This document shows, in pieces, positions 51,801 to 60,191 of a stretch of DNA of 64,000 nt (the stretch's first letter is position 1; every line of letters starts with the position of its first letter). Below the pieces are notes generated by a model. It was not told where the DNA came from. It was given only the letters and a program-made list of their open reading frames with translations, and did not search any database. This DNA comes from Ignavibacteria bacterium (GTDB lineage: Bacteria; Bacteroidota; Ignavibacteria; Kapaibacteriales; UBA4661). The position numbers and the translations under genes were made by a program. The stretch spans positions 22,921-86,920 of the forward strand of contig JACVZY010000014.1 in assembly GCA_014654705.1 (NCBI GenBank), read 5' to 3'.

Positions 51801-52523
51801 AGTCTCAGCGTTTATCACATCAGAACGTTCTTGAATACGAGCTTGCATCTGCAAGCACTCGTCTTCTGAGAGGATGCGTATATCGCCCAATTTCTCCGTA
51901 AGCCGCTTCAAAAGCTCTTCCTGTGCCTTTGCTTCTTGGTATGCCCGTGCAGAAATTATTGAATATTCTTCAGTCCCTGTCATTTTTTCCAACAGTGCAG
52001 CGCGTTCTTTATCTTCACCCTTCAAAAAATCGGCAAATTTTCCTTGAGCAAGCATTACCGAGCGTAAAAACTGTTCGCAAGAAAGACCACACAATTCCGC
52101 CACTTTCGGAGGAACTTCCGATTTTTTTTGTGTAAGAAGCATTCCTTCACCAAATGCTTGACGAAGTTCCGACAACTCCATTTTTTCCTCTTGTAATTCA
52201 CCATCAGCTTTTTTATAGGCGCGTTGCTGCGACCATTTGGCGCGATAGCGTTTACCTGACACTTCAAACTCTACTTCCGCAAAACATTCTACTGCATGCC
52301 GAGATAACATCTCTTCAGGGCTATTTTTTTTTCCAATGCCGTAGCGAACTGTTTTGCCGTAAAGCGCGACGGTGATTGCGTCCAGAATAGTCGTTTTTCC
52401 CGCGCCAGTCTCGCCCGTGATAAGAAACAAGCCACTTTCAGCAAGCGGCGTATCATCGAAATTGATGAACTGCTCATCACGCAGGGAATTGAGATTAGCA
52501 AAGCGAACGGAACAAATTTTCAT
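48834..52523 (-). CDS. sbcC: Exonuclease subunit SbcC (Rad50-like ATPase)
   Basis: The 1229-residue protein is an SMC-like ATPase with Walker A GETGAGKTTILDAI near 36-49. Long coiled coils flank a zinc-hook motif ACPLCG near 605. The C-terminal signature is SLSGGETFLVSLALALGLS, with Walker B DSLFVDEGFGTLD. With SbcD it forms the nuclease that opens DNA hairpins and resects broken ends. A run of glutamines (near 485) lies in the first coiled coil. It starts with a four-base ATGA overlap with sbcD, so the two are translated together. Confidence 0.96.
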   Translation of the reverse strand: MKICSVRFANLNSLRDEQFINFDDTPLAESGLFLITGETGAGKTTILDAITVALYGKTVRYGIGKKNSPEEMLSRHAVECFAEVEFEVSGKRYRAKWSQQRAYKKADGELQEEKMELSELRQAFGEGMLLTQKKSEVPPKVAELCGLSCEQFLRSVMLAQGKFADFLKGEDKERAALLEKMTGTEEYSIISARAYQEAKAQEELLKRLTEKLGDIRILSEDECLQMQARIQERSDVINAETQEMERLRTALDWVKLCAELFQKKQEAEGQFRTKETEKAALIGDEQRLERHRKAVPLQASLAVLDGQRSELQAIQEQRKSIEEIALPEAQEALQTLQHLVSEQQELAQTAKQELVEAEPLFDAVVALDSRLQAAEKHIAEERVKVQAAENEVEQLRKKADERNTLANKAREGSQKLALWLQENAKDKALSNSVSRLEVEYENIVKAQNEHKMARAAVEEHKNQQTLNANIIHERVKVHEEALKQQQQQQEKTKELEHEIESALQGKSLQQISQLLEQCRNEGEALKELLRIAEGVAKKTEQQLGLAEKIAAQQDEIKTLQTQEEDTNKNLTNLEEKRSLAQIALEQARYIAKYEEDRARLVAGEACPLCGSQHHPFAEHNPEAEPSALEKALKRCESEVKAATKAFNELQSKLSSTTSLLAASNEALQELNKEITQLEEEFAANTSQHLISASLQNTDDLKHTYTLKRAEFQELHRTKDVIEKVQSALHEHRTNSEVVNDNLAKAAQALALAEQHRTTLADTLPTIEERVNACAQEVERSKAEYEKHLAEFGEELPKTVNAAQTQIQKLKERAKEYQKNLDDEQQSRHAAEQHAVTVLQVEEMLQKQIQVLTGIQEEIARKEQIQNAQKAERNEKFGTKEPNAERHRLKAKIDAAEKAVVAAEQSREQAATTLTALQTKVQELSSRQETVQREIVRASEAIQKESLLLNFDDENNLRSALLLADEATQLEHRIKAAHDALLTAQTALTEIVKNYDVEISKNLLGEISQHDAESRFGALQRSIAQMTEERGALKQQLDHDEEQRRSSSDVAEKIELQRKETSRWQALNELIGSAKGDKFREFAQGLTLSRLVRLANVQLTRLNERFELLKVPEEDLQLAIIDNEQAGAVRPIESLSGGETFLVSLALALGLSDLASHKTRIDSLFVDEGFGTLDSQTLEEVMTALENLRMRGKTIGIISHVEMLKERITTQIQVRKRGDGVSDVRVVGRT

Positions 52524-53767
52524 GCGGTTTCCCCCCGTTCATTCAAAAGAGACAGTAATTCTCGGTATGTTTGCTTTAGTTCCAGTATTTGAGCGGCTTC
52601 CTTACCTTCTCGCTTCAAAAGTTCCTCGAACACAAATTCGCGGGTGAGTTCTTCCAAACGCGTGTCGTCATTGCCCGCAAAGACAGGCACAGTACGCTTT
52701 CGCTCTTGCACCACACGCACAATAAGCATTTGTGAACCATATAGCTTTGTTGCCAATGAGCGAAAATGCTCATCGGCGTTCACACCACTAAACAAACCTT
52801 CACTGTTCGGCACAATGCGGAGTTCGACAAACGTTGGAAGCGTATATTTGCTTGCGTCATAAGATTTCAATGCTGCTTCAACTTCTTCCCACGTTCCCGA
52901 AAAGCGCACCAAACGCCGAAATGTGGGAAGCGGCACAACTTCTATACTAGCGGGTTGGGAGGGCAAACACTCGACGATTACTACTTGCTTTGCATCATCG
53001 CGTTCGCTAAAGTCCAGTGCGACTGGCGAACCCGAATACCGCACCCGTTCTTGCTTGCCGACTGTCTGAGGACGATGCAAATGACCCAGCGCAACATAAA
53101 CGAGAGCTTCGGGAAAAGCATCTGCACCGATTTGCCCCAAATTCCCAACGTGAATTTGCTCTTTATTGTCCAAGTCGCCCGTGATGCCGCCTTGTGCGAA
53201 CAAATGCCCCGTTGCGATAATAGGTAAGCCTTCGGTATTCATCGTTTGTGCGGCTGCAACGACTTTTTCGTAATGCCCACGAATTCCCGCTATAAGACGC
53301 TGCGAGCGTTCAGAATCGCTTTCACCCGGCAAGGAATAGCGCAAATCTTTATCCCGCAAAAACGGCACGGCGCAGCAGTACCCAATCGTTGTACCTGATG
53401 TGTTTTTAACTGCAATAACTTCATCGGCAATGTTTTCCGTTGCCCCGCCCACAACGTGAATGTTCATTGCCTCCAAAAGGTCACGCGGTGCGTTCAGCGC
53501 GGCGGGCGAATCGTGGTTGCCGCCCGTTATGATAATTGTGCCGCAGCCCGCTTGTACGGCGCGTGTGAGAAAGGAATAGTATTGCTTCAAAGCAGACTGC
53601 GGAGGCGTTCCCGTATCAAAAACATCTCCGGCGTGAACAAGAGCATCTATACGGTGTTCGCGTATCAGGTTCAAAATTGCATCCAAGGCAGCATCGTGTT
53701 CGGCGGCGAGGTCTTGCCCGTGCAAGCGTCTGCCCAAGTGCCAGTCGGCGGTGTGGAGGAATTTCAT
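52520..53767 (-). CDS. sbcD: Exonuclease subunit SbcD (Mre11-like nuclease)
   Basis: The 415-residue protein has the metallophosphoesterase motifs of Mre11: HTADWHLG (5-12), VHAGDVFDTG (44-53), TGGNHDSPAALNAPR (81-95) and GHLFAQGG. These bind two manganese ions and cut DNA ends. A C-terminal capping domain follows. It overlaps sbcC by four bases. A 33-base stretch at its 5' end (53738-53770) is repeated in altered form at 54581-54615, on the far side of the toxin-antitoxin pair. Confidence 0.96.
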   Translation of the reverse strand: MKFLHTADWHLGRRLHGQDLAAEHDAALDAILNLIREHRIDALVHAGDVFDTGTPPQSALKQYYSFLTRAVQAGCGTIIITGGNHDSPAALNAPRDLLEAMNIHVVGGATENIADEVIAVKNTSGTTIGYCCAVPFLRDKDLRYSLPGESDSERSQRLIAGIRGHYEKVVAAAQTMNTEGLPIIATGHLFAQGGITGDLDNKEQIHVGNLGQIGADAFPEALVYVALGHLHRPQTVGKQERVRYSGSPVALDFSERDDAKQVVIVECLPSQPASIEVVPLPTFRRLVRFSGTWEEVEAALKSYDASKYTLPTFVELRIVPNSEGLFSGVNADEHFRSLATKLYGSQMLIVRVVQERKRTVPVFAGNDDTRLEELTREFVFEELLKREGKEAAQILELKQTYRELLSLLNERGETA

Positions 53768-53801
53768 GGAGAAGTAAGGAAGTTCTTGTTTGGAGATTTC
53801 A

Positions 53802-54257
53802 TTATGGTATAGAGAGCAGAGCGGGATTGATGACAGTCAAACCCGCTTCCGAGGCTGCACGAAGTAATTCCCCGTCCGACGCTACGACAATAATCGCATC
53901 AGAAGGTGAGCAATAATGAACCAGAGAAAGTGCTGATGCCAAATGCACCGCGTCTGCACCCCGCAGATAGTAATTTTCTACGATGGCAAATGATTGGTCA
54001 ATAATTGGGCTATGAATTTCAATTTGCAAAAAACGTTGCCAATCAGTCTGAACAATGGTGATGAGGGACTCAAGCACTGATCGTTCCATTAGACCACCGC
54101 GAACACGCCGTCCCAACGCTGCACAAACTTCTACCACGCCCAAAACAGAACACGCAATGTAGGCATTAGATCGAAGCAACTGTTCCACCCATTCCGTGCC
54201 TTGTTCTTGCTGATAGCGTTTTACCCAGGCACTTGCATCAAGATAGTACAGCGTCAT
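53802..54257 (-). CDS. PIN-domain toxin (VapC family)
   Basis: The 151-residue protein has the four acidic residues of a PIN nuclease: Asp7 in YLDASAWVKRY, Glu43 in VVEVCAAL, Asp102 in GADAVHLASAL and Asp128 in VASDGELLRAA. It ends in the usual GLTVINP. VapC toxins cut tRNA or rRNA when their antitoxin is lost. It overlaps the upstream antitoxin gene by four bases (ATGA). It lies directly upstream of sbcD, in what looks like an inserted segment. Confidence 0.88.
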   Translation of the reverse strand: MTLYYLDASAWVKRYQQEQGTEWVEQLLRSNAYIACSVLGVVEVCAALGRRVRGGLMERSVLESLITIVQTDWQRFLQIEIHSPIIDQSFAIVENYYLRGADAVHLASALSLVHYCSPSDAIIVVASDGELLRAASEAGLTVINPALLSIP

Positions 54258-54493
54258 CGTCTATTGCTCTCCAGCATTTCCGATAACGACGGTGAGGAAG
54301 GTGCTAATGGTTCAAAAGTCTGTATGCTCTGTGGCGAACGAGTTGGGAACTTGACAAAACCGCTTCCGGCGAGGCGTTCAAGAAGTGAATTGCTTGGAAT
54401 TGGTTCTAATTCTTCAACATAATGCAGCACCTGAACTAATGTCATATCGTTCATCGCGGATAATTTTTCGTTGAGTGCTTCTCGTATGCTCAT
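54254..54493 (-). CDS. VapB-like antitoxin
   Basis: This 79-residue protein is encoded just before the PIN toxin, with a four-base overlap, the standard antitoxin-toxin order. The first half (MSIREALNEKLSAMNDMTLVQVLHYVEELE) is helical. The second half is extended and proline- and serine-rich, as in antitoxin tails that wrap the toxin. Its DNA-binding fold is not evident from sequence, so the family is uncertain although the role is likely. Confidence 0.7.
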   Translation of the reverse strand: MSIREALNEKLSAMNDMTLVQVLHYVEELEPIPSNSLLERLAGSGFVKFPTRSPQSIQTFEPLAPSSPSLSEMLESNRR

Positions 54494-55561: not shown

Positions 55562-56881
55562 TCACACAGCCCGCACCACCTTCAACTCCCCCCAATGCGT
55601 CGTGTACCTGTGCGAGCGCTCGTCCGTTGCGCCTTGCCATGCATGGCTTCCCGCGCGGCTTCCCGTAATAGAAGAGCCGGAAGCTGCCAGATGAAGCGCA
55701 TCCTTCCCGAAGCGCTTATTGAGCGTATCCATGATGTGCATGATGCTTTCATGCCGCGTATCGGGTTGGCTGAAAATGTCTGTTTGAACGCGGTTGCGCG
55801 GAGTGAGTTCGCAGAGCGTCACACTTGCTTTTTTGTAGCCCTGCCCTTCCTGAGCAATCCTGTCCACAAGCATAGAAGCGGCGTTCACAAGGTCAATCGT
55901 GGAATCAGTCGGGAACGGCAGTATCGCTTCCCCGCCATTCGAGAAATAGTCTGCGGAAGAAAATCGATTCGTGCGCACGGACACCGACACGCAAGCGCAG
56001 ACAAGACCCAAACGGCGTAGTTTCTCCGCTGCGCGCCCCGTGAAGGAGGCAACGGCTTCGTGGAGCTGGTCTAACGACGTGACTGCATGGCGAAACGAGC
56101 GCGAGTGCAGAATGGAGTGTTGATGTTCGTTGGTGCTTTCCAGACGCACACAGGAAATGCCGCGCAGTTCGCGTTGTGTGCGCCAGCCAACGACCGTTGC
56201 GCGTTTGCGTACCCATTCTTCAGGAGCATTTTTGAGGTCGAGCGCTGTCGTAATGCTGTGCGCCCTGTATGCTTCCGAAAGTTTTCTGCCCACGCCCCAC
56301 ACATCGCCAACGGGCATCGTGGCAAGCATAGTATCAGCAGTCGCTTCGTCCAAACAAGCAAAGATGCTGTTTGCGCTGGCGTTCTTTTTTGCCATTCTGT
56401 TTGCTGCTTTGGCGAGTGTTTTCGTTGGTGCGATGCCAATGCTGACGGGAATGCCTGTCCACTGCCGTACTGTGCGGCGAACCTCTTCCGCAAAGGAAAG
56501 AATTTTTTCCTTGTTGGCGGCGTAATCGTCTCCTCGCAGCAAACAATCAAGGTTCATAAACGCTTCATCAACGCTATACACTTCAAAACATTCTTCTGGC
56601 AGAAAACTTGCAAGTACGTCCATCACGCGACGCGACATATCGCCATAAAGTGCAAAATTGGACGAGAACACGTGTACACCATGCTCCTCAATCAGCCGCC
56701 GCCACTGGAAATACGGCGCACCCATTGGTATTCCGAGCGCTTTGGCTTCGTTGGAACGCGCAACAATACAGCCGTCGTTATTGGAGAGCACGACGACAGG
56801 TTTTCCGTTCAGACGCGGGTTAAAAACTCGTTCGCAGGAGGCAAAAAAATTATTGCAATCAATCAGCGCAAAAAGAGGCAT
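55562..56881 (-). CDS. umuC: Translesion DNA polymerase V catalytic subunit (UmuC)
   Basis: The 439-residue Y-family polymerase has the catalytic motifs FALIDCNNFFASCERVF (Asp8) and CFEVYSVDEAFMNLD. Thumb and little-finger domains follow, and the UmuC-specific C-terminal part ends past residue 400. It copies over DNA lesions with low fidelity after damage. It lies 23 bases after umuD and is probably transcribed with it. The ATG at 56881 is preferred to a TTG three codons upstream, since family proteins begin with MxLFALIDCNNF. Confidence 0.95.
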   Translation of the reverse strand: MPLFALIDCNNFFASCERVFNPRLNGKPVVVLSNNDGCIVARSNEAKALGIPMGAPYFQWRRLIEEHGVHVFSSNFALYGDMSRRVMDVLASFLPEECFEVYSVDEAFMNLDCLLRGDDYAANKEKILSFAEEVRRTVRQWTGIPVSIGIAPTKTLAKAANRMAKKNASANSIFACLDEATADTMLATMPVGDVWGVGRKLSEAYRAHSITTALDLKNAPEEWVRKRATVVGWRTQRELRGISCVRLESTNEHQHSILHSRSFRHAVTSLDQLHEAVASFTGRAAEKLRRLGLVCACVSVSVRTNRFSSADYFSNGGEAILPFPTDSTIDLVNAASMLVDRIAQEGQGYKKASVTLCELTPRNRVQTDIFSQPDTRHESIMHIMDTLNKRFGKDALHLAASGSSITGSRAGSHAWQGATDERSHRYTTHWGELKVVRAV

Positions 56882-56904
56882 GGAGAACAAGGAATACGAG
56901 AAGT

Positions 56905-57345
56905 TTAGCGGTTTTCGAGCGAGTGAATAACATAAGTTACCACGCCCCAGACCTCGAAATTTGTTTCTGCTGTTATTTCAATTGACTCGCCTTCGTTTGG
57001 TTCCGGCTCCAGAAATGTGCGTTTCCCCACACGGCGCAAGCGGCGCACAAGCAAGTCGCCATCAAGCGAAGCGATAACAATGCTACGGTCAACAGCCGTG
57101 AGCGAGCGGTCAACGACCAGCAAATCGCCCGACCACATTCCTACGTCGTGCATTGCATCACCTTCCACGCGCACAAAAAACGTCGCCGAAGGCTGCTTAA
57201 CGAGCATAGCGTTCAGGTCAAGTTTTGTCTCGAAGTGGTCATCGGCGGCAGGTGTGGGGAAGCCCGCTCTCACGGAACCGAAAAAAATAGGCAGTTCCAG
57301 TGCGTCTCCACGATGAGCCGGATGAATGGATGCGACTTTGAGCAT
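56905..57345 (-). CDS. umuD: UmuD homologue lacking the catalytic serine and lysine
   Basis: The 146-residue protein aligns along its length with Escherichia coli UmuD, including the cleavage-site context (RAGFPTPAADD at 26-36) and DLNAMLVKQPSATFFVRVEGD. In UmuD, Ser60 of GDSM and Lys97 of VKKL form the self-cleavage dyad. Here the positions read GDAM (Ala64, codon GCA at 57154-57156) and VRRL (Arg101, codon CGC at 57043-57045). The dyad is therefore gone, and self-cleavage to UmuD' should not occur. The protein may act uncleaved or need another protease. It is followed 23 bases on by umuC. Confidence 0.9.
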   Translation of the reverse strand: MLKVASIHPAHRGDALELPIFFGSVRAGFPTPAADDHFETKLDLNAMLVKQPSATFFVRVEGDAMHDVGMWSGDLLVVDRSLTAVDRSIVIASLDGDLLVRRLRRVGKRTFLEPEPNEGESIEITAETNFEVWGVVTYVIHSLENR

Positions 57346-57486: not shown

Positions 57487-59940
57487 TCAAACTTCTTTGC
57501 TCCGTACCTGCTCAATAAAATACGTCCTCATCATGCCTTTGCCCTTAATTTCCATTTCACCGCGCTCCTCAAATGCAAAGCTATCTTTGCTGTCCTTGAG
57601 CGCCTCATAGACTGCCGACGAACAATGCACACGTCCTGCCTCGCCGTGGGATTCCATGCGGCTTGCAGTGTTCACAGTGTCACCCCAGAGGTCGTAGGCA
57701 AATTTATTTTGCCCGATAACGCCCGCCGTCGCTTCGCCACAGTGCAGTCCCACGCGAATCTTCAAGTCCACACCCAAAAACTCTGAACAGCGTTCTATTT
57801 CTTGCGCCATCTGCAATCCCAGTTCTGCCATTGCTGCCGTATGGTCTTTGCGAGAATTTAACAGACCACCCGCGACCATATAGGCATCGCCAATCGTTTT
57901 TATTTTCTCCAAGCCGTGTTGCTCCGTCAGTGTGTCGAAGGCGGAGAATACGACGTTCAGCATCTCAACCAGTTCTTTCGGACCTACGCTTGCGGAGAGT
58001 TTGGTAAAGCCGACAATATCAGCAAAAAGAACACTGACATTCGGTAAACCATCAGCGATGATACCTTCGCCCTTTTTGAGGCGGTCGGCAATCGCTTCAG
58101 GGAGAATACTACGGAGCAACTGATCAGACTTTTCGCGCTCGTGCTGCACTTGGGCTATGTATTTGTGCTGTTGGCGGCGTATGTTGTAGAGTTCATAATG
58201 AAACTTCAGACGGGCAATAATTTCCGCTTTTTGAAATGGTTTTATCACGTAATCCGCACCGCCTGCCTCAAAACCCTTTACAATGGCTTGCGTATCGTTC
58301 AGTCCGCTCATAAAAATTACTGGAATGTCCTGCGTTTCTTCAAGGCTTTTAATTTCCTTGCAGACTTCGTAACCGTCAATATCCGGCAAAACAATATCCA
58401 GAAGTACAATGTCCGGCGCATGGTCGGCAACCGCATCCAGAGCTGCATTGCCGCTTGTTACCAACGTCAAATCAAACACTTCATGGTGCAAAATTGTTTT
58501 CAAGATAGAAAGATTGGTCACAGAATCATCCACAATAAGGAGACGTGGTTTGTGGGTATCCTGCTTAGACATCTCTTCGGCAACACTGAAGGCGTCGGCT
58601 CGAATGCTCTCCAGCATAGACATATCCCGCTGCTGGACGCTGCTTTGGCTTTGCTGCATCGTGTCCACTTCTTCTTCAAATTTCAACAAGCGGCGTTGTA
58701 AACGTTGCAAATCTTCTGCAAGCCGCATATTATCATGGCTTTTGTCGGCGTCAGTTTCTGGATGTTCTCCTTCGCTGGAAATATCTTTCTTAATTTGCTC
58801 AATCGCACCCAGCATCTCGGTCATGGTACTTTGCAAGGTATCTTTTTTTTCCTTGCGTTCGGCTAGCGTTGTAAATGCGCCCGCCAGCTTCGTAATATCC
58901 GTTTGCGCAGAGTGCGCCGAAGCAAGACGGCGTGTTACTTTCGCGGTCTGGTTGGTAACGATTTCAGGAATAGATACATTCAGGGTATCTGCTTGATTTT
59001 TGACTAACGCCTGCAGTTCCTGAATGGGCTTGCGAAGGCTCTGCTCGGTGAGTCTGGGAATATCAGTAATTTCTTGCGTCAGCGAATCAAATGCAGAAAA
59101 ATAATTTTTTAGTTCACCGACAGCTTCTTCCAGCACGCGATGGCGCTCATCGGTTTCGATTTGGCGATGTTTCATTTCCTCAAGCATCTGGCTGACGCGC
59201 CCCAATGCTTGTATCAAGAAATGATACTCTTCAGGATTTTGCTCTGAGCTTGACGCTGGCTCTTCTTCATAATCGGCATATTCCTCAAGTTCTCTCTTGT
59301 CATCGTAGTTCGCCCTACCCTGCACAGCATTGGATAATGACTCCAGTGTTTCGTTGATTTGCTTTTGTATGAGGTCCAGTTCGGTACCGAAAAGATTCGT
59401 AAAATCTTCGCGTAAGAGCTTTGGCAGCGCAAGTTCGAGTGCGTCGAAACTTGCACGGAACTGTTTCTCAAGCGTTGTTTGCAGTTGAATTTGTAATTCA
59501 TTGGCAATATGCTCCTCCAATCGCTCACCAATACTTGTACTGAGTTCTGTATGAAGGCGGTTTTGCTGGGTTTCGGATTGCTTTTGGAGTTGCTGCTCCA
59601 GTTGGCTTTGGATTTCGACTGGTAACTGCCTGTGCAGTTCTACCAGCGCATCGTTCAGCATGGACATCGCGTATTTCACTTCCTCCGAGGCACTCTGCGC
59701 ATGGCTTGTTTGCTCTTTCGCGGTGGATTCAATTAGTGCTGTGGTACGCTGTGCATGAATCATTGCCTTCGAGAGCGCCGAGCGTATTTCGCTGGAATAA
59801 TTTGCTTGCTCAATGAGCGCAGTAGAAGTAGTGATGGCACTCGAACGAAGTTGAAAAAGTAGCCACAAGGATAATCCGGCAAGAACCATCAATATCCCTA
59901 ACATTGGCAGTGCCCAAAAAAGGAGTGTTTCGGAGGACAT
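57487..59940 (-). CDS. Membrane-anchored REC-adenylate cyclase
   Basis: The 817-residue protein has one membrane helix (about 7-28), a very long coiled coil (about 35-440), a receiver domain (about 465-580, with phospho-acceptor near 513 in DIVLLDIVLPDIDG) and a C-terminal class III nucleotide cyclase domain (about 625-790). The cyclase has the metal aspartate in VLFADIVGF. Lys in KIKTIGDAYMVA and Asp in YDLWGDTVNTASRM are the pair that selects ATP, so cAMP is the expected product. The ATG at 59940 follows AAGGA. The input kinase is unknown. Confidence 0.9.
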   Translation of the reverse strand: MSSETLLFWALPMLGILMVLAGLSLWLLFQLRSSAITTSTALIEQANYSSEIRSALSKAMIHAQRTTALIESTAKEQTSHAQSASEEVKYAMSMLNDALVELHRQLPVEIQSQLEQQLQKQSETQQNRLHTELSTSIGERLEEHIANELQIQLQTTLEKQFRASFDALELALPKLLREDFTNLFGTELDLIQKQINETLESLSNAVQGRANYDDKRELEEYADYEEEPASSSEQNPEEYHFLIQALGRVSQMLEEMKHRQIETDERHRVLEEAVGELKNYFSAFDSLTQEITDIPRLTEQSLRKPIQELQALVKNQADTLNVSIPEIVTNQTAKVTRRLASAHSAQTDITKLAGAFTTLAERKEKKDTLQSTMTEMLGAIEQIKKDISSEGEHPETDADKSHDNMRLAEDLQRLQRRLLKFEEEVDTMQQSQSSVQQRDMSMLESIRADAFSVAEEMSKQDTHKPRLLIVDDSVTNLSILKTILHHEVFDLTLVTSGNAALDAVADHAPDIVLLDIVLPDIDGYEVCKEIKSLEETQDIPVIFMSGLNDTQAIVKGFEAGGADYVIKPFQKAEIIARLKFHYELYNIRRQQHKYIAQVQHEREKSDQLLRSILPEAIADRLKKGEGIIADGLPNVSVLFADIVGFTKLSASVGPKELVEMLNVVFSAFDTLTEQHGLEKIKTIGDAYMVAGGLLNSRKDHTAAMAELGLQMAQEIERCSEFLGVDLKIRVGLHCGEATAGVIGQNKFAYDLWGDTVNTASRMESHGEAGRVHCSSAVYEALKDSKDSFAFEERGEMEIKGKGMMRTYFIEQVRSKEV

Positions 59941-60191
59941 AATCGCGTATCCTTGTAAAAAATAATTGTTATTTGTTTGTGCAGTTGTTGTTCTATCTCT
60001 GTTGTTCAGATATAACAGAATCAAAATATACAAATACAATGCCACATCTGCCTGTGAAAATAAGGCTTTCATCGCAAATTCTTCACAATAAATGCTTCAT
60101 CCCTATCCATTCATTGCAGAATATTACGGAAAATAGTATTTTCGCTCTTTGATAGTAGTGCGCATACCGAACCCCAAATGGAGAGAAACGA

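Follow-up and report, generated by a model that had tools for sequence, protein, structure and literature searches.

Introduction

In the textbook view, mutagenic pol V is gated by the self-cleavage of UmuD; UmuD/UmuD' is the accessory subunit of this polymerase in Escherichia coli. Cleavage frees UmuC from the membrane and the UmuD K97A variant prevents this release (PMC4552617); with the non-cleavable variants K97A and S60A, either UmuC is held at the membrane or mutagenesis is blocked (PMC4552617; PMC3901139). Full-length UmuD has an inhibitory effect on mutagenesis and a role in a damage checkpoint (PMC3901139), and UmuD S60A can be cut in trans by an active variant within a heterodimer (PMC5342242). 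On the polymerase side, the DUF4113 tail region of UmuC has been implicated in the binding of RecA and UmuD' (PMC6511836).

Related proteins without catalytic residues have been described. LexA of Synechocystis PCC 6803 is non-cleavable, having lost the catalytic Ser and the Ala-Gly bond (PMC3091678); UmuD of the same organism retains Ser and Lys. Within the wider LexA/signal-peptidase superfamily, Streptococcus SipA has no catalytic activity and has been kept for a binding function (PMC4049620), but it belongs to the signal-peptidase branch and acts in pilus assembly. In the open-access literature searched, we found no report of a natural UmuD without the Ser-Lys dyad, nor any report on LexA in Kapabacteria.

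Results

UmuD and UmuC in the window

The window (the whole stretch of 64,000 nucleotides analysed here) carries a umuD-like gene followed, 23 bp downstream and on the same strand, by umuC (Table 1). The earlier note on this DNA had described the product as a UmuD homologue in which the catalytic Ser has become Ala and the catalytic Lys has become Arg, with the AG cleavage site kept; both the coordinates and the alignment to E. coli UmuD bore this out. The best solved relatives were E. coli UmuD and UmuD' (8gmt at 1.2e-26 in the alignment). The GDAM motif aligned over the GDSM of Ser60 in 8gmt, and VRRL over Lys97, where the UmuD' entries read VKKL (8gmt itself has an engineered Ala at this position). 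The protein scored 135 bits with NCBIfam PRK10276 (NF007621; cut-off 110) and 81 bits with Pfam S24, whereas its 80 bits with the HumD family NF051876 fell below the curated cut-off of 120.

Table 1. Features of the umuDC locus, in window coordinates
Feature	Position	Strand	Description
umuC	55562..56881	-	Y-family polymerase of 439 aa (ATG start); its DUF4113 tail is the UmuD/RecA-binding region
umuD-like gene	56905..57345	-	146 aa from ATG; S24 domain without Ser-Lys dyad
Ala64, codon GCA	57154..57156	-	Aligns with Ser60, the catalytic serine of E. coli UmuD
Arg101, codon CGC	57043..57045	-	Aligns with Lys97, the catalytic lysine of E. coli UmuD
Scissile Ala27-Gly28, retained	57262..57267	-	Counterpart of the E. 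coli Cys24-Gly25 site
Pro116 codon	56998..57000	-	Position of E. coli UmuD Asn111, which is invariant in 53 intact homologues

Structure prediction, with a mean pLDDT of 80 and a disordered arm, gave the fold of UmuD' 1umu at a TM-score of 0.89 by target length in Foldseek. Neither the alignment nor the predicted fold offered another Ser or Lys to replace the missing dyad, and a shifted active site was rejected on these grounds. Direct production of UmuD' from an internal start was also rejected, as there is no conserved start codon just before Gly28 (the Val25 position reads GTG in the window, GTC in genome G006 and ATT in genome G007).

The window protein thus resembles E. coli UmuD in fold, length, arm, Ala/Cys-Gly site and operon with umuC, and differs from it in Ser60, Lys97 and Asn111, replaced by Ala, Arg and Pro. 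Self-cleavage is therefore predicted to be absent, in agreement with the earlier expectation that the protein stays uncut by itself. Laboratory non-cleavable variants (S60A, K97A) had the same residues removed, but the present case is natural, combines both changes and is fixed in a clade. The arm residues altered in UmuD-3A, a UmuD' mimic (cited in PMC3901139), are mostly kept in the window protein. Since it belongs to the UmuD sequence family by its S24 sequence and fold, its umuC operon and its Ala-Gly bond behind an N-terminal arm, and lacks the defining catalytic dyad, the label suggested by its sequence should be UmuD pseudoprotease and not "autoproteolytic subunit".

In the adjacent UmuC, the catalytic carboxylate motifs LIDCNNFFASCE and YSVDEAF were found; its PRK03609 score (377 bits) was under the cut-off of 431, as for most UmuCs of the class. 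Neighbouring genes (52520-54493 and 57487-60072) comprise an SbcD-like metallophosphoesterase, a response-regulator adenylate/guanylate cyclase and a gene for a PIN-domain protein preceded by a small ORF, possibly a toxin-antitoxin pair. A near-identical dyad-less umuDC pair was seen in two different gene neighbourhoods, one in genome G007 (L010) and the other on an IMG/VR contig called viral (L137), which suggests that the operon is mobile.

Distribution in the family and the class

Named relatives place the genome of the window in the Candidatus Kapaibacterium/Ignavibacteria-type group. The umuDC pair was present in five of the 10 genomes of its family. The Ser/Lys positions were Ala/Arg in the window's genome (G000) and in G003 and G006, Arg/Arg in G007, and Ala/Gly in G009 (a genome 70% complete), the identities to the window UmuD being 97% (partial sequence), 81, 48, and 34% for G003, G006, G007, and G009, respectively. 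Ser and Lys in sister genomes, which the earlier note had named as the sign of a local mutation or error, were thus not seen, and the Ala and Arg shared by G003 and G006 rule out both a local mutation and an assembly error. The UmuCs of the five genomes formed one clade in a UmuC tree (SH-aLRT 86).

When 391 genomes of the class were surveyed with UmuC as bait, a umuC-adjacent UmuD with intact Ser and Lys was found in 34 other genomes. The sole other dyad-less one belonged to an unrelated genome of family f19 (G103, 67% complete), with Ala/Arg and the cleavage motif also gone; relatives of G103 in f19 have umuC without an adjacent umuD. Stand-alone UmuDs of family f5 were closer to the window protein (up to around 60% identity over the matched part), all with an intact dyad. 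These f5 genes (L023-L041; loci read by eye) are not beside umuC and mostly precede an ArgD/class III-type aminotransferase gene. The distribution is best read as a probable loss of RecA-stimulated self-cleavage in the ancestor of the window's family.

Selection on umuD and the positions that changed

Between the window and G006, dN/dS of umuD was around 0.07 (0.12/1.80; 0.05 in the core and 0.18 in the arm), a rough value because a dS of about 1.8 is nearly saturated; values between the window and G003 were 0.015/0.16, and dN/dS of umuC was 0.09. No stops or frameshifts occurred in umuD of any member of the family. The gene is under strong purifying selection and is not decaying, so that the earlier description of an otherwise intact gene paired with umuC stands. 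In the same comparison with G006 (window 55562-57345 vs. L008), the synonymous divergence of umuD was far above the 0.52 of umuC next to it, the pattern expected if recombination had replaced umuC.

With 53 intact UmuDs as reference, 30 columns were at least 90% conserved. Among seven dyad-less sequences (six from the class plus the phage-like L206), the columns altered in six or seven were those of Ser60, Ile66, Lys97 and Asn111 (E. coli numbering), Asn111 being among the positions most consistently lost after the dyad, and most other columns were kept. Loss therefore appears specific to the catalytic apparatus, and the joint loss with the dyad suggests that Asn111 and Ile66 may serve catalysis.

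Dyad loss across the phylum

Across the phylum, 395 genomes were sampled and 85 umuC loci were read, 70 of them, outside the class, with a scorable neighbouring UmuD. Both residues were present in 47 of these UmuDs, both were missing in 20, and Lys alone was missing in three. On a UmuC tree, built by a quick method and with some rows unscored owing to a gap filter, at least six changes of dyad state were needed. The double loss, which the earlier note had considered unusual, is thus recurrent. In family f43 none of 15 UmuDs kept both residues; in f36 both were lost in three out of four (G505 was intact), and further losses occurred in f33, f39, f41 and f61, besides G103.

Like the window protein, these UmuDs lie beside umuC and are mostly of the Ala/Arg type, the commonest end state of dyad loss. 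They differ at the scissile bond: outside the window's family, P1 was Thr in 21 of the 22 dyad-less or Lys-less phylum UmuDs with a readable site and Ser in the remaining one (f33), and the site was absent in G103, whereas the four genome copies of the window's family in which the site could be read all kept Ala at P1. In f43, seven out of 10 genomes searched held just UmuD and one other S24 protein, which was a LexA with an intact dyad where read. Such lineages, with P1 Thr and, in most f43 genomes searched, no S24 protein besides LexA, argue that UmuD can do its work uncleaved; they show that a UmuD probably beyond the reach of any S24 enzyme is a viable state.

An Ala/Arg UmuD (GNAM/VRRL) was also present on a phage-like contig pair (L206 1535-2044 and L207 859-1368), with Ala-Gly kept and no umuC nearby, directly upstream of an SRAP/YedK-like gene; the prophage appears gammaproteobacterial (assigned by eye). 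Several dyad-less UmuDs (those of the window, L010, L206, L381 and L377) passed the cut-off of the NF007621 "autoproteolytic subunit" model. This database label is wrong for them because the model ignores the dyad, and public annotation thus conceals the loss.

Other S24 proteins of the same genomes

The genome of the window holds seven S24 domains and a normal RecA. The earlier note had proposed a search for another UmuD or LexA with an intact dyad, and the answer was divided: an intact UmuD-like protein is present, whereas LexA itself has no dyad. The former (C81, 31762-32151) is a stand-alone S24 protein of 140 aa with GDSM and VKRL, sharing an identical SVRAG with the window UmuD. Each of the five family genomes with umuDC encodes this paralogue, with GDSM or GNSM and VKRL, and two genomes that have no umuDC (G004 and G005) keep it too. 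The protein scores equally as LexA C-domain and as UmuD, and in most genomes examined its gene adjoins a molybdate-binding-protein gene, in several also an XdhC-type gene, and not repair genes. Three further S24 ORFs of the window's genome (L212, L214 and L216, on C106, C115 and C99, respectively) either overlap a distinct HTH gene or come after one; resolvase-like genes lie near two of the three, and all three look like split phage-type repressors.

LexA of the window's genome (C93, L217 964-1800) has an authentic wHTH and scores above the TIGR00498 cut-off, but it has Gly/Arg for Ser/Lys and no Ala-Gly. All 10 genomes of the family have a LexA without Ser, Lys and Ala-Gly; dyad-less LexAs were also found in the sister families f2, f4, f7, f8 and f9 and in part of f5, except in G152 and G354 of the sister families, where Ser was kept and Lys lost. 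This order-level group (L217, L220-L229, L247, L274-L287) is of the DDGM/VRRF type, with an authentic wHTH, Lys always replaced by Arg and no Ala-Gly site. Genome G148 (f23) has a second, intact LexA besides a dyad-less one, and LexA of G103 (L266 1444-1758) consists of the DNA-binding wHTH domain in a frame of 105 codons, and no remnant of S24 was seen close by. A simple scan of the umuD and lexA upstream regions (recA left out) revealed no shared palindrome that could be a common SOS box.

The pairing of LexA and UmuD dyad loss in the window's family and in G103 is suggestive. A strict rule by which the second follows the first was rejected: in f43 LexA is cleavable and UmuD has no dyad, and in f2 and f8 it is LexA that has lost the dyad and UmuD that is intact. 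Three features together make the window's family special: the scissile Ala kept, the intact stand-alone UmuD-like protein, and the LexA without Ser, Lys and Ala-Gly.

Discussion

Because cleavage in E. coli releases the membrane-held UmuC and K97A blocks this release, a working dyad-less UmuD must act uncleaved or be cut by something else. The earlier note had listed a constitutive cofactor, a checkpoint-only UmuD and cleavage by another protease, a reasonable set. The reading that we favour, at about an even chance, is that the window UmuD is a pseudoprotease that functions with no self-cleavage and most probably serves UmuC as a constitutive subunit. It is favoured by the dyad changes throughout one UmuC clade, by the intact Ser and Lys of nearly all other umuC-adjacent UmuDs of the class, by the low dN/dS, by the concentration of changes on four columns, and by the independent dyad losses with P1 Thr elsewhere. 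This partner of UmuC would have lost RecA-stimulated self-cleavage in the family ancestor while selection retained its binding role; full-length UmuD may support UmuC constitutively, as a structural subunit similar to UmuD', and mutagenesis would be controlled elsewhere, for example via expression. As LexA of the same genomes is also dyad-less, this family has apparently given up RecA-triggered proteolysis in the SOS response at both proteins on which it normally acts. Synechocystis LexA is a parallel, being another S24 protein of the SOS system that is without its catalytic Ser and its Ala-Gly bond, although it is a transcription factor. Several points count against a constitutive subunit. 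The phenotype of non-cleavable UmuD in E. coli implies that uncleaved UmuD need not activate UmuC; the preservation of Ala-Gly and of the LPxF arm motif in the dyad-less UmuDs of the family, while the catalytic positions drift, may be a sign that this bond still has a use; and the link with LexA is not general, given f43, f2 and f8.

The main rival, which we consider possible though clearly less probable, is trans-cleavage: the intact stand-alone S24 protein (C81 in the window's genome) would cut the dyad-less UmuD as a heterodimer or encounter complex, and UmuD' would still be made upon damage. This is consistent with the paralogue in five out of five genomes with a dyad-less UmuD in the family, with P1-P1' Ala-Gly in all four covering sequences despite varying catalytic positions, with P1 Thr in lineages without such a paralogue, with the SVRAG common to both proteins, and with the precedent of S60A cut in heterodimers (PMC5342242). 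However, the presence of the paralogue in five out of five umuDC genomes vs. two out of five without umuDC is not significant, and since G004 and G005 keep it without umuDC, it has another job; its usual molybdate-related neighbour and its equal scores as LexA C-domain and UmuD also speak against this role. A broader version, to which we give a rather low probability, is that the SOS proteolytic switch has been split in the window's family, the stand-alone protease cutting UmuD in trans and LexA acting as a non-proteolytic regulator, while elsewhere in the phylum pol V would be fully independent of cleavage, with repeated convergence on Ala/Arg.

It seems unlikely that uncleavable UmuD serves the checkpoint alone, permanently restraining UmuC and the replicase, with little or no translesion synthesis by UmuC. 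The inhibition of mutagenesis by full-length E. coli UmuD (PMC3901139) and the kept arm with its LPxF motif fit this idea, but UmuC retains its polymerase motifs and DUF4113 tail under purifying selection, and the retention of a polymerase under lasting inhibition would be unexpected. It is very improbable that Lon, Clp or another unrelated protease processes or removes UmuD in place of self-cleavage: ATP-dependent proteases do degrade UmuD and UmuC in E. coli, but the sequence indicates no site for them and the kept Ala-Gly is the site of S24 cleavage and no signature of Clp or Lon. Least credible is early decay, with umuD a relic held by linkage to umuC, for although the catalytic residues are gone and f19 relatives of G103 have umuC without an adjacent umuD, the low dN/dS, the absence of stops and frameshifts in the family and the kept structural columns largely refute it.

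The dyad has been lost in close relatives and, independently, in several other bacterial lineages, and the self-cutting switch thus appears dispensable more often than thought. If these UmuDs are natural and selected, as their sequences indicate, pol V-like mutagenesis must be controlled otherwise in many bacteria, and dyad-less UmuDs would provide natural test cases for the purpose of cleavage.
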